From assembly GCF_011769525.1 (NCBI RefSeq), contig NZ_CP050440.1, positions 3,349,501 to 3,413,500 on the forward strand: a stretch of DNA of 64,000 bases, given 5' to 3'. Source of the DNA: Tolypothrix sp. PCC 7910 (GTDB taxonomy: Bacteria; Cyanobacteriota; Cyanobacteriia; Cyanobacteriales; Nostocaceae). Positions 203 to 48,100 of the stretch are shown piece after piece. Each line of letters opens with the position of its first letter. The stretch's first letter is position 1. The position numbers were made by a program, and so were the translations under genes. The notes beneath the pieces are model-generated. The model was not told where the DNA came from and ran no database searches. It saw only the letters and a list, made by a program, of their open reading frames with translations.

Positions 203-439
203 TCAAACGGCAGGATGAACATTTTTGTAGGATTCGATCAGTTCTCTACGCCCACTACCACGATGCGGTACAGGTTTTTCTGGCTGGTTAGGCTTGGGCT
301 TGGGTCTGGCTGAGAGCAAGTGTTCTGAACCAGATGAGGATGGTAACAAACGTGAGAATTGATTGATCGTAGCTTGACAGTTGATAGCAAAGGAAACAGC
401 TACCAAACTAGAGGCTAAAAGTGAAACTACAGCACGCAT
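203..439 (-). CDS. patX: PatX, RGSGR-containing heterocyst pattern inhibitor precursor
   Basis: This 78-residue exported precursor has a hydrophobic N-terminus (about residues 3-20), a proline/lysine-rich middle (RPKPKPNQPEKP, 45-56) and the pentapeptide RGSGR at 60-64 in the context HRGSGRRE. PatX is known from heterocystous cyanobacteria as a source of RGSGR peptide, which moves between cells and inhibits HetR so that heterocysts are spaced. PatS and HetN carry the same pentapeptide, but PatS is a very short peptide and HetN a ketoacyl-reductase-like protein, so this architecture fits PatX. An in-frame TAA 12 nt upstream (449-451) makes the ATG at 439 the first possible start. A TCCGGA element lies about 60 nt upstream, and hetR is 9.6 kb away. 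The gene follows an FAD oxidoreductase on the same strand at a 101-bp gap but appears to have its own promoter. Confidence 0.88.
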   Translation of the reverse strand: MRAVVSLLASSLVAVSFAINCQATINQFSRLLPSSSGSEHLLSARPKPKPNQPEKPVPHRGSGRRELIESYKNVHPAV

Positions 440-475
440 AGCAGATGTTTATTTTAAAACTGTCTTATTACCTCC

Positions 476-502
476 TACTTAGTTTTTATTACTGCATCCG
501 GA
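476..502 (-). promoter_or_regulatory. DIF-type (TCCGGA) promoter upstream of patX
   Basis: TCCGGA at 497-502 lies 58 nt upstream of the patX ATG. Fifteen bases downstream on the minus strand is TAAGTA (481-476), a poor but possible -10. TCCGGA near -35 is the DIF1 motif described for HetR-dependent, differentiation-induced promoters in Anabaena. The motif is palindromic and short, so only its placement before a known developmental gene gives it weight. Confidence 0.55.
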
Positions 503-540: not shown

Positions 541-2316
541 TCAACTTGATTCAATCACAAGATGTTCTACTAGCAACCAATTACCAGCCGAGTTCAAGCG
601 ACTGTCAACGGTTACCAATTGCCCATCTAGACAAGCTTTTAGTTGTTCATCAATGTGCGATCGCAAGGTTACAAGCTGCCAAATCTGCTTTTGATGCGTT
701 GTTGGTGTCATAATGCTGAATCTGTAATCTTGCTGATGTAAGCGATGAAATACACCTGTAAAGCAATTACTCAACCGTGATAATACTGGATTTACAGATT
801 CGTAATTACACGTAGATGATATTAAGCCAGGACAGTTACCATCAAGCGGATAGCTGGCAGGATTGTTGAGATAATTTATTTGCGACCGTATCCACTGAGG
901 ATGAGCAAGTGTTGAATTGAACAATGGAATAATTGCCGCAGGCGATCGCTTGTCTTCTAATAAAGCCATTTGTAGCGCCCTCGCTGGTAAATCCCGCGGT
1001 TGACAGTTCAATTCAACGCACATAGCCGCAGCCATTCCCGCAGCTTGACCAATACCCATCACCACAGGTTGCAATCGAGTTGCACCATTAGCAATATGGG
1101 AAACGGAAATATTCTTTTCGCAAACTAAAAAGCCGTCTATAGTTGCAGGAATCAGGCTACTGTAGGGAATTGTGAAGGGTGTCCCTGTCCAGCGTCCGCC
1201 CCAACGAATCGATTTAGGTTGCAGGGGAAAGTTAAAGCCTGGGTAATGGTGGTCGTTAGGATAGTTAGCGATCGCGATTGCATCTATATTTAATGATGCT
1301 ACCTGACCCCCAGACACAGGTAAGATATTCTGTTCGGTAATTGTTGTCATTCCCACCAAGCGCCGACTTTCCCGGTAATAAGGATGCAGTGCAAAAGCTG
1401 TGGGTGAATGAGGAAATACCTGTGTTGCTAAACCGTAGCGCCTACCAACCTGATTTTGGATGTAATGGGCAAAATTTTGGCTATGCCAGCGAGATTCTTG
1501 AATATACTCATCTCTACTGGCTTTTGAACCTAGAAGCCGTCCTAAACCTTCACCATAGTCATTACCGCATATAGGCCAATTGAGCATCAATAGACCCCCA
1601 GGTAAGCGTCCATAATTCAAAAATTGTTCCGCACCATAACCATCCCAAGCACCTGCAAATTTCGATGGATCGTAATTCGGCGCTGGGGGAATTTCTGGGG
1701 CGATATCTGTACCAAAATCTTGCATTAGCACAACCCCAGTTGGCGCTTGTACAGGGTATTTTTCCGTGAGAGGATTAGGAGATTCTGGGGCGCTAGGTTC
1801 TCCCCATTGCGATCGCCATTCCCAACCCCAACGAAAAGGTATTTCCGCCAAAGCCAATAAATCGCCTAACTCTGTCCCATCGAGGGTAATTTTAGCTTTC
1901 ACAATAAAATCACTAAACCGAACCCCAGTTACACAACTTCCTTCGCGAAAAACCTCTAAGGGAACTTCCCCTACAATCCAATGCAGATTTGCTAACTCGT
2001 GCACCCAATCTGCAAAAATTTGCGCCCCAACTCGCGGATCGAAACTAAAAAAGCTTACCCAGCTGTGATCTAAACCTTCTAGCTGACGGTGCTGTAATTC
2101 TCGTAAAAACTCACCCCACAACCCCGTCTGAAAAGCTTCTAACTCATTTCCATCAGGGACAGATACGCCAGCAGAGGTTAACATTCCCCCTAACCAAGCA
2201 AACTCACTCACCAGGATAGTTTTCGCCCCACGTCGCGCCGCCTGAATCGCCGCCGCTGTACCGCCTACTCCACCACCCACCACTAAAACATCAGCTTGAT
2301 ATGTCTGATTCATCAT
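541..2316 (-). CDS. FAD-dependent oxidoreductase (FAD_oxidored family)
   Basis: A 591-residue protein opens with a dinucleotide-binding fold: VLVVGGGVGGTAAAIQAARRG at about residues 10-30 (GxGxxG), followed by a WLGGM segment, as in the FAD_oxidored (PF12831) family. Substrate is not predictable from sequence. There is no signal peptide, so a cytoplasmic location is likely. Two adjacent ATGs (2316 and 2313) are possible starts. The gene is read towards patX with a 101-bp gap, and is divergent from the acetyltransferase at 2467. I recall the same type of gene beside patX in Anabaena, which I could not verify. Confidence 0.8.
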   Translation of the reverse strand: MMNQTYQADVLVVGGGVGGTAAAIQAARRGAKTILVSEFAWLGGMLTSAGVSVPDGNELEAFQTGLWGEFLRELQHRQLEGLDHSWVSFFSFDPRVGAQIFADWVHELANLHWIVGEVPLEVFREGSCVTGVRFSDFIVKAKITLDGTELGDLLALAEIPFRWGWEWRSQWGEPSAPESPNPLTEKYPVQAPTGVVLMQDFGTDIAPEIPPAPNYDPSKFAGAWDGYGAEQFLNYGRLPGGLLMLNWPICGNDYGEGLGRLLGSKASRDEYIQESRWHSQNFAHYIQNQVGRRYGLATQVFPHSPTAFALHPYYRESRRLVGMTTITEQNILPVSGGQVASLNIDAIAIANYPNDHHYPGFNFPLQPKSIRWGGRWTGTPFTIPYSSLIPATIDGFLVCEKNISVSHIANGATRLQPVVMGIGQAAGMAAAMCVELNCQPRDLPARALQMALLEDKRSPAAIIPLFNSTLAHPQWIRSQINYLNNPASYPLDGNCPGLISSTCNYESVNPVLSRLSNCFTGVFHRLHQQDYRFSIMTPTTHQKQIWQLVTLRSHIDEQLKACLDGQLVTVDSRLNSAGNWLLVEHLVIESS

Positions 2317-8846: not shown

Positions 8847-8878
8847 TATTCCCGAATTATTTAAATAATTCGGGAATA
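8847..8878. terminator. Perfect palindrome after EamA gene
   Basis: Two 16-base arms (TATTCCCGAATTATTT and its complement) form an uninterrupted stem 47 bp after the stop codon of the EamA gene. There is no T-run on either side, so it is a probable 3'-end stabiliser or a non-canonical terminator. Confidence 0.5.
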
Positions 8879-9360
8879 TAATCTAAAAATAAATTCTTAA
8901 TATATATTATTTATATAAAACTTTAGATGCTAACTCATTGATTTTTGCATATTTTTTTGATAATTAAGATAACGTATAATTAATCGTCTATGATTAATAT
9001 ATAGCTATGCTATTCTCCTAACCTATCTTTAGTCTAAAAGACAAGATAACTAGATATACCTACCATTATTTATTCCATAGTTATCTAGCGTTGTTCTTGA
9101 TTTCCTTTTCAATGTTTCTCCCGCCGCAATTCATTGCAAGCATCAAATGAAATTGCCAGACATACATCATCAATTACACAAATATCAACTAAACTTAATT
9201 TTACTTTTTGTATAAAAAAAACAAATAATAATTATGAGAAAAATTAAAATCTCTTACTTGATATAAGTAAAAGTCAAGAAAAATGCTAAAATAAATGAAT
9301 AATATTTACAGGCAAAATAAATAAAAGACTTGAAAATCTAATTTATCAAGCTTTATTTGT

Positions 9361-9464
9361 TATAGCAATCCTAACTGAGTTGTGAAAACTACTCATGGAG
9401 TTAGGGAATAGGGAAGAAGGATGTATAAGTGTACTTTTTTTCCAAATTAAATAGGAATGCTATA
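9361..9464. mobile_element. MITE-like 104-bp element in hetR upstream region
   Basis: TATAGCAATCCTA at 9361-9373 and TAGGAATGCTATA at 9452-9464 are 13-bp terminal inverted repeats with one mismatch. There is no reading frame inside and no clear target duplication. It lies 606 bp before the hetR ATG. Confidence 0.5.
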
Positions 9465-10045
9465 TTTGCCATTTCAGTAATTTTTCAATTACTAGAATGG
9501 TAAACAGTAAAAAGTTTTGCAGTGATGGATTCAACGTACCTCATCTGTGAAATTTTGCAGCTTGATTTTTAAATTTTTTAGCCAAAATTGAATCATCGGT
9601 TGCTGATACCGATTGTGCAATTACAAATTTCTCTGTAGCTTTCCCTAGTAGCTGATTATATTGAATTACGTAACTTACAAACGTTTTTTATAGCTTGATT
9701 AAGTATCGTCCAGTATTAAAGTAATTAAAAAACAGCCTCGAAATATCATTGAGGAGAACCTAAGCGTTTTTATACAGCCTAATCAGCTAATTTTTCCTAA
9801 AAACCCAATTTGAGAAATGTAGTAAAGGAATGGAGGGCTAAAAAGTGGTAGTAATATTACGGAGATAAGTTATATAAAATACAGCAACTACATCTTTATC
9901 AACTATGTGTCTGAAATTACACCTAATTTCATCATTTTGACTAGCAAGAACTTCATACTTGACGCATAATAAATAATCTGAAGTGAAAATATTGCCTTCA
10001 GTCGGGTGTATACTACTTACTTTCCTACGGCTAATAAATTTGTAA

Positions 10046-10969
<924 letters not shown>

Positions 10970-45194: not shown

Positions 45195-48100
45195 CTACTT
45201 TGTCATTGTCAGGGTGCGACGCTTAGTCACCATTTGGTAGGCTTCGATGATGTCACCTTCAGCCCAATCGTGGAATTTATCTATGCCAATACCGCATTCA
45301 TAACCGGCATTGACTTCGCGCGCATCTTCTTTCATCCGTTTGAGGGAATCCAGAACGCCTTCGTAAATCACCCTACCGTTACGACGTACCCGCACTTTGC
45401 AGTTGCGGACTAGTTTGCCAGATTGCACATAACAACCAGCAACTGCGCCTCGACCAACTGGGAATACGGCACGGACTTCGGTTTGTCCCAAGGATTCTTC
45501 CACTAATTCGGGTTCCAACAGACCTTCCAAGGCTCCTTGAATATCTTCGAGGAGTTTGTAGATGATGTTGTATTCCCGCACATCTACACCTGCTTCATCG
45601 GCAGCTTGTCTGGCTCCACTGGCATAGGTGGTGTTGAAGCCAATAATTACAGCGTTACTAGCAGCAGCTAAGTCGATATCCGTTTCGGTGATTTCTCCAG
45701 CAGTAGCTAACAACATCCGGATTTGGACTTCGTTTTGCGGAATTTGTCTGAGCGATCCCACAATAGCTTCCACTGAACCTTGCACATCTGCTTTGAGGAT
45801 TAAGTTGAGTTCTTTCAACTCGCCCTCTTGTGCTTGAGCTGAGAGGGTTGTGAGCGTAACACGTCCCTGTAATAGTCGGGATTGACGCTGTTTGTCTGCG
45901 CGATCGCTAGCTAGGGCACGTGCTTCTTTTTCGTTCTCGAATGCCTCAAATTCATCACCTGCTGCTGGCACATCGCTCAACCCTAAGACTTCGACAGCAA
46001 AGGAAGGACTAGCAATTTCTACTCTTCTTCCTCTGTCATCGACCATGGCCCGCACTTTACCAAATGCTGAGCCAGCTACCAACATGTCTCCGACATGCAA
46101 GGTGCCATTTTGAATCAGCAAGGTAGCAACTGCGCCCTTAGCTTTATCCAAATGCGCTTCTATGACTGTTCCTTTGGCAGCCCGGTCTGGGTTGGCAGAT
46201 AGTTCGGCAACTTCTGCGACTAGCAGAATCATTTCTAGGAGTGTATCGAGGTTCTCTCCCTTGATTGCACTCACGGGAACCATAATTGTTTCACCACCCC
46301 AGTCTTCTGCTGTGAGACCGTAGTTGGTAAGTTCTTGTTTTACCCGCTCTGGTTGTGCGCCTTCTTTGTCAATTTTGTTAATTGCTACAACAATGGGCAC
46401 TCCCGCTGCCTGAGCGTGGCTGATGGCTTCAATGGTTTGAGGACGTACACCATCATCAGCAGCTACTACCAAAACGGCAATATCTGTGACTCTTGCTCCT
46501 CTAGCCCGCATGGCGGTGAATGCTTCGTGACCAGGGGTATCGAGGAATACGATTTGCTGTGGCTTACCTTCATGTTCGATATCCACATGGTATGCACCAA
46601 TATGCTGAGTGATCCCCCCAGCTTCGCCAGCGGCCACTTTGGTTTTGCGGATCGAGTCCAGCAAGGTGGTTTTCCCGTGGTCTACGTGACCCATAATGGT
46701 CACTACTGGTGGACGGCGATGGAGATTCTCCATGTCTGCCAGATCCAGCATTTCTGTAACTTTGCGGGCTTCTGCTTCTGGTTCAGCAGTTTCAACTGCT
46801 ACTTCTAAATCGGTGCAGATTAAGGTAATGGTTGGCACATCCAGATTTTGGGTGATGCTCACTGCCATACCTTTGAGGAACAGGATTTTCACAATCTCTG
46901 TATCTGCGATCGCTAAAGCATCAGCCAGTTCCTGCACGGTCATTGGCCCAGTTACCACCAATTTTTCTGGACGTTCCCGCTTAGTCTCTACTTCTTGACG
47001 ACGATTTTGGTCGCGGTTGGTAGCAGCAGACTTTTTACCTCTAGTGGTAGGGCTAGCAACAGCTATTGCAGGTTGTTGTGTTGGTCGCGTAGCTTTTGGT
47101 TTAGGAGGACGAGCAATTGAAAGGCTGACCTGGACTGTGGCTGGAATTTCCAGACCTTCTTCATCCAGTAAATCTTCTTCCTCAAAATCATCATCTAAGA
47201 GCGGCTTGACTCGCTTGCCTTTGACACCAGCCTTGCCAGATTTCTCTTTGATTTCATCAATAATTTCTTCTTCTTGCCACTTTTTACCACCTTTGGCTGG
47301 ACGTGGTGGTGTGGGGCGTTTCAAATCGAGAATGTCAGCAGGAATGGCTTCATCAAGTGTTGTTGTTGCTGCTGCTTTCCCCGCACCGCCTTGCATTGGT
47401 CTAGGTGGTGTAGCAATTGGCATTGCTGCTACAGCTTCACTGGGACGAACTGGTCTGCTGGGCCGTTGGGGATCGGAGAATGGAGCGCCACCAGGAGCGC
47501 GATTTCCTCTTTGTTCGGGTTTGACTGGGCCTGGAGTTGGACGAGCCTGTTTTTGTGGTGTAGGCTGTGAAGCTTGGTCTGTGGATGGTTTAGCTGCCCT
47601 TGGCTTAACTTGCTCGCGTTCTTCTTCGCCACGTTTTGGGCGTTCGCGTTTGAGAATTGGTTTTTCTGCCTGGCTCAGCGGCTCGATCGCTGGTGGGTCT
47701 TCAGACATTGGCCTGGCAGGAGGCGCAACTAGTTGAGGTTTTGGCGGTTTTTCTGGTCTCGGTTTGGATGAAACTGGTTTTTCCGGCTTTTCCGCAACTA
47801 TTTTTTCTTTTGGCGGTGTATTAGGCGTTGTATCCGCATCTTTAACAGCTGGTTGCTGTTGGGTCTCAGAAAGATTTCGGGGTACGGGTCGAGTTGGTGC
47901 CGTCGGCTGCATGGGTGAGACTGGTGTAGCGAAGGGCTTTGGAGGTGAAGGAGGGTTAGCTTCAGACAAAGCAGATTGGGTAGTTGTATTAACTGATGCC
48001 TCTGGGGCGTTGGAGTTAGGATTTCTCAATATTTTGGGTTTACGAATTTCCAAAATTTGTTGTTTGTGAGGTGATGGTGCAGGTCGATTTCGAGAGCCAG

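Follow-up and report, generated by a model that had tools for sequence, protein, structure and literature searches.

We describe a patX gene and its DIF1 promoter in a 64-kb stretch of DNA (hereafter the window) that also contains hetR, and propose that DIF1-driven expression of patX yields an exported precursor whose peptide limits HetR, an account to which we assign a probability of roughly 0.94. The identity of the gene, the presence of the DIF1 motif, the position and conservation of the promoter and the presence of hetR are results at the level of sequence (Table 1). The locus is an ordinary patX orthologue, and both the gene and this type of promoter have been published previously; the peptide made from PatX is known to keep adjacent cells of a cyanobacterial filament from differentiating into nitrogen-fixing heterocysts.

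Table 1. Features of the patX–hetR region and of the second copies of the patX promoter. Plain coordinates are those of the window; G000 is the source genome.
Feature	Coordinates	Strand	Remarks
patX, predicted 78-aa exported precursor of HetR-inhibiting peptide	203..439	-	NF047413 match
HRGSGRRE, PatX residues 59-66	242..265	-	RGSGR at 248-262
Predicted untranslated leader, ~25 bases	440..464	-	start site predicted near 464
Predicted extended -10 region	465..481	-	AGTA at 476-479, 17 bases past TCCGGA
TCCGGA, DIF1 motif	497..502	.	palindrome; begins 63 bases ahead of patX ATG
FAD-dependent oxidoreductase gene, patX upstream neighbour	541..2316	-	PF12831, 2.2e-98; 101-base gap
TACGGA, one mismatch to DIF1	9858..9863	+	212 bases before hetR; function doubtful
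hetR, predicted PatX peptide target	10070..10969	+	NF009718, 1.4e-188
Second patX promoter copy, source genome	G000:C1:2205363-2205628		L073 1064-1329; L074
Second patX promoter copy, relative	G133:C124 near 46907-47187		L075; promoter core intact

The patX gene and its product

The first-pass annotation had described a short precursor carrying HRGSGRRE towards its C-terminus, and its reading frame, length, strand and motif are all confirmed: the ORF list gives an ATG-initiated frame encoding 78 amino acids with RGSGR at residues 60-64, and the HRGSGR codons were recovered independently at the same position by a pattern search of the whole genome. The product matches NF047413 (heterocyst_PatX), a curated equivalog model for PatX in NCBIfam, with a score of 85.6 bits (E = 2.9e-24, cut-off 30), and the alignment covers positions 1-68 of the 69 in the profile and residues 1-66 of the ORF. 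No Pfam family was matched at E values up to 1. Together with matches in 186 of 192 genomes of the same family and conserved neighbouring genes, the curated model upholds the identification as PatX, and its existence in NCBIfam means that the gene can no longer be called easily missed by annotation, as had been suggested.

The N-terminus of the protein is hydrophobic, with a 15-residue hydropathy mean of up to 2.2 over residues 4-18, which fits a predicted Sec signal. RGSGR is present in all 19 PatX proteins aligned, a set that was itself selected for RG[ST]GR. Within the window RG[ST]GR occurs in two of the 274 ORFs of at least 40 amino acids, patX and a 101-aa plus-strand ORF at 47764; the latter is presumably a shadow ORF, because it is nested within an ORF of 1045 amino acids on the opposite strand. 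PatX of Anabaena/Nostoc PCC 7120 (asl2332) is likewise a small precursor with a hydrophobic N-terminus, an RG[ST]GR motif and a DIF1 promoter, although its motif is RGTGR rather than RGSGR (PMC7761841).

A conserved DIF1 promoter upstream of patX

TCCGGA is found at six sites in the window, compared with 7.65 expected by chance, and since it is not enriched the motif alone is little proof of a promoter. Only one of the 122 window ORFs of at least 60 amino acids – patX – has it 30-120 bases upstream. Its position was compared among relatives selected by RG[ST]GR and a start codon, independently of TCCGGA; the 102 distinct upstream/protein pairs (121 minus duplicates) have the motif starting at -63 in 89 cases and at -62 in seven, and lack it in six. 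A smaller set of 49 upstream regions was drawn from 50 loci and the window, omitting L001 as a duplicate of the window and dropping L019 and L024 at the start filter; here TCCGGA lies at -63 in 44 and at -62 in four, and L043 has TCCGGG. L108 and L118, apparent counterparts of the two dropped loci, have TCCGGA at -63. Moreover, the sequence AGTA, 17 bases past TCCGGA, is invariant in all 44 regions aligned at -63. The near-invariant position and the accompanying AGTA block bear out the earlier suggestion that the spacing is compatible with a promoter, and by this comparison the TCCGGA ahead of patX is a conserved DIF1 promoter and not a chance occurrence.

The spacing of AGTA equals the spacer of the minimal DIF promoter tested experimentally, which is reported to consist of DIF1, a 17-base spacer and an extended -10 region (PMC6133370), so that the anatomy fits. 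The DIF1 (DIF+) promoters of nsiR1, patS and hetR in PCC 7120 are described as having the same arrangement, with TCCGGA at -35, followed after 17 bases by the extended -10 region (PMC6133370); in contrast to these, the patX start site is here a predicted one, located near 464 by placing DIF1 at -35. The 25 bases just ahead of the ATG are also highly conserved across genera, with a mean column identity among 89 sequences of 0.896 over -25..-1, compared with 0.647 over -57..-43 and 0.78 over -100..-81. The conserved leader could harbour a signal acting in translation or at the RNA level, and inspection of 440-464 revealed no Shine-Dalgarno-like sequence adjoining the ATG.

The extended -10 region of the window departs from the patX family consensus, matching it at 10 of 17 positions where the median is 16 (n = 89), and only five of the 89 sequences score lower. 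This consensus was derived from the patX family alignment and not from the letters of the published DIF logo, and the window promoter was scored as row L195, an identical stretch of the source genome. The -10 region is reported to be important for heterocyst specificity (PMC6133370). The low score, and the presence of the FAD-dependent oxidoreductase gene on the same strand just upstream, would both be expected if patX were transcribed mainly by read-through from that gene, with TCCGGA playing a minor role ahead of a degenerate -10 region. We consider this distinctly unlikely, however, because TCCGGA and AGTA are both intact and occupy fixed positions across genera, and because a minimal patX DIF1 promoter is reported to be sufficient for expression in (pro)heterocysts of Anabaena PCC 7120 (PMC7377430).

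Distribution of patX and its neighbourhood

The 186 PatX matches among the family genomes include 185 above the cut-off, and none was obtained in 14 control genomes. One genome (G082) has no NF047413 match, yet was found by a wider profile (E = 4.2e-5) and has an ORF with RGSGR and TCCGGA at -63. A lack of PatX similarity in other strains, which the first-pass annotation had named as grounds for abandoning its proposal, is excluded by the NF047413 and family-genome matches. The pairing of patX with the FAD gene is seen in all seven same-genus loci and in 11 of the 13 loci retrieved from other members of the family; the retrieved stretch also includes hetR in five of the seven and in four of the 13. 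In PCC 7120, asl2332 adjoins gene 2333, according to plasmid descriptions in PMC7761841.

A survey of named loci found by the FAD oxidoreductase protein covered the best 80 of 156, and an RG[ST]GR ORF lies within 1.2 kb downstream of the FAD gene in 66 of these 80 and in none of the other 14. TCCGGA is present within 200 bases upstream of 56 of those 66 ORFs, at -63 in 50, and L116 was scored at -132 solely through the choice of an internal ATG. The ten ORF loci without TCCGGA among these best 80 include one named Anabaenopsis, and the rest either are assigned to genera such as Oscillatoria, Lyngbya and Leptolyngbya, which are not known to form heterocysts, or lack a genus name. The absence of TCCGGA under non-heterocystous names does not amount to a clean rule, since a DIF1 promoter has been predicted ahead of patX-hetR in non-heterocystous Leptolyngbya BL0902 (PMC11298460).

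Five of the 192 genomes (G017, G065, G093, G033 and G078) are, from sequence searches, possible exceptions to the presence of PatX in all HetR-containing cyanobacteria. All five have hetR and the FAD gene (loci L059-L061, L063 and L064), the latter with one internal stop in G033 and split into two pieces in G078, and patX was not detected downstream of the FAD gene in any of them. Elsewhere in these genomes a profile search extended to E = 10 yielded only matches of E = 0.4 or worse, and the three of four weak matches that were read contain no PatX-type RG[ST]GR ORF. Codon patterns of the [H/Y]RGSGR-like and ERGSGR-like types were searched in seven genomes; nine regions and a further three were read, and the remaining matches were judged from the matched letters. 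Matches to HRGSGR in G065, G017 and G093 were rejected as patX, appearing to lie in an alternative frame of another gene, and a patS-like ORF with CYGERGSGRYKYLN is present in both G065 and G093 (L184, L185). Because the codon patterns were limited to chosen residues before RGSGR, the absence of patX is unproven.

hetR and a patS-like gene

The distance of 9.6 kb between patX and hetR given by the first-pass annotation is correct (10070 - 439), and this genome has a single hetR match. Exact TCCGGA is absent from the 1.2 kb upstream of hetR (window positions 8870-10069), and, counting the window, from the hetR upstream regions of 14 out of 16 loci; the sites in the other two, L041 (-952) and L055 (-1083), were discounted as too far away and probably within a neighbouring gene. 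The hetR gene of Anabaena PCC 7120 differs in this respect, being described as having a DIF1 promoter (PMC7377430). Two weaker sequences precede hetR in the window. TACGGA at 9858 has equivalents at -212 in L033, L035 and L037 and at -317 in L038, with none at -212 in L036, and the stretch 9432-9480 (TACTTTTT...AATAGGAATGC...TCAGTAA) is vaguely DIF1-like and degenerate. Both were set aside as weak candidates for a hetR DIF1 promoter, the AGTA block 17 bases on being missing by eye.

The same genome contains a patS-like ORF ending MLINSSDERGSGR (G000:C1, about 7307339-7307380; L182), with no TCCGGA over the 1.36 kb upstream of its motif. With no exact TCCGGA near hetR or this ORF, patX is the only one of the three genes with a close, exact DIF1 motif. 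PatS of PCC 7120 is not known to have a Sec signal and, at 17 amino acids, is far shorter than the PatX described here. The two are alike in that PatS also contributes an RGSGR peptide inhibiting HetR, and in PCC 7120 it too has a DIF1 promoter (PMC7377430).

A duplicate patX promoter outside the window

The core of the patX promoter is present twice in two of eight genomes of the genus, the source genome and a relative (G133). A genome-wide pattern of TCCGGA plus GTA gave 228 matches, compared with 52 for a reversed control; the second copy was spotted among the matches listed, several of which are identical repeats. In the source genome a degraded 3′ end of the FAD gene precedes the patX upstream region, TCCGGA included, and the place of patX is taken by an ORF of 55 amino acids encoding a peptide with a hydrophobic head and no RGSGR; G133 shows the same layout with its promoter core intact. 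A single-sequence search with this peptide (E up to 0.1) found matches in 11 of 192 genomes, although among the matches listed those beyond G000, G133 and one in G088 are weak and mostly have internal stops. A three-row profile matched five of the 192 family genomes, and there was no Pfam match and no plasmid match. The copies in the two genomes differ by four non-synonymous and three synonymous changes, and thus give no clear signal of selection on the peptide.

Several small peptides (L074, L075, L085/L199, L200, L201 and L202) share a hydrophobic start, a charged tail and a motif resembling FR..F.K.AP...AL, and three members of this family have no Pfam match. One copy lies on a contig of 57.8 kb, and the source genome has a further member 2.9 kb from the first. 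Relatives of the 55-aa peptide exist without a DIF1 site upstream.

The arrangement would be accounted for if the patX promoter had been copied and captured by the ORF of this hydrophobic-headed 55-aa peptide, a reading that we regard as speculative and unlikely. Were the peptide expressed, PatX would be released in this strain together with a second exported peptide under DIF1 control, and the latter could be a new developmental signal or a heterocyst cell-envelope factor.

A predicted feedback loop on HetR

By analogy with PCC 7120, nitrogen step-down would switch on the DIF1 promoter of patX in differentiating cells through HetR and HetZ, with TCCGGA acting at about -35 and the extended -10 region 17 bases downstream. 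The 78-aa precursor would then be exported by means of its N-terminal signal and cleaved, probably by the peptidase PatP, once outside the cytosol. The freed HRGSGR peptide would reach neighbouring cells, bind HetR and block its DNA binding, and HetR would thereby restrain its own action along the filament. Both the extension of the PCC 7120 mechanism to this strain and to HRGSGR, and the movement of the peptide from cell to cell, are predictions of this account.

In Anabaena PCC 7120, induction of patX from its DIF1 promoter is reported to depend on NtcA and HetR (PMC7761841), and DIF1 promoters including that of patX depend more directly on HetZ, which is itself a HetR target (PMC7377430). 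The hexapeptide HRGTGR of PCC 7120 PatX binds HetR at 88 nM and blocks its binding to DNA, as described in PMC12756182, and the earlier statement that an RGSGR-type peptide inhibits HetR is in agreement with this published hexapeptide. With both induction and inhibition published for PCC 7120, the feedback loop proposed by the first-pass annotation is already in print; the loop itself stands, but its route runs largely through HetZ and is less direct than had been supposed. Overexpressed PatX is reported to block heterocysts in PCC 7120, the Nostoc PCC 7120 protein is reported to be cleaved by PatP, and its export signal was shown in E. coli fusions; a PatX-sfGFP fusion remained cytosolic in Nostoc, which the authors attribute to fast folding (PMC12756182). 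When patX alone is mutated in Anabaena PCC 7120, the pattern formed in the absence of combined nitrogen is normal (PMC7761841), and given this and the patS-like gene in the present genome, patX may be redundant here.

PatX could instead have its main effect on a different and older process in filamentous cyanobacteria, and not on HetR. Transcriptomes of patX, hetR and double-deletion strains of Leptolyngbya BL0902 suggested that PatX effects are basically HetR-independent, as reported in PMC11298460, and RG[ST]GR ORFs are found beside the FAD gene under the names Oscillatoria, Lyngbya and Leptolyngbya as well. Nevertheless, the binding of the PatX hexapeptide to HetR with loss of DNA binding, and the DIF1 control that links patX to heterocyst development, make this very improbable. 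That a random small ORF with RGSGR happens to follow a random TCCGGA is a negligible prospect that we reject, as the ordinary number of TCCGGA sites in the window and the second, shadow-like RG[ST]GR ORF are outweighed by the curated NF047413 match and by a promoter conserved at -63 or -62 in 96 of 102 distinct relatives.

We therefore return to the DIF1-driven loop as the preferred account of this locus. It leaves the accepted picture of heterocyst inhibition unchanged, and amends the route of the loop, which would pass via HetZ. It also adds one more hetR genome with a complete inhibitor gene and a developmental promoter, the position of which is rigid across the family.
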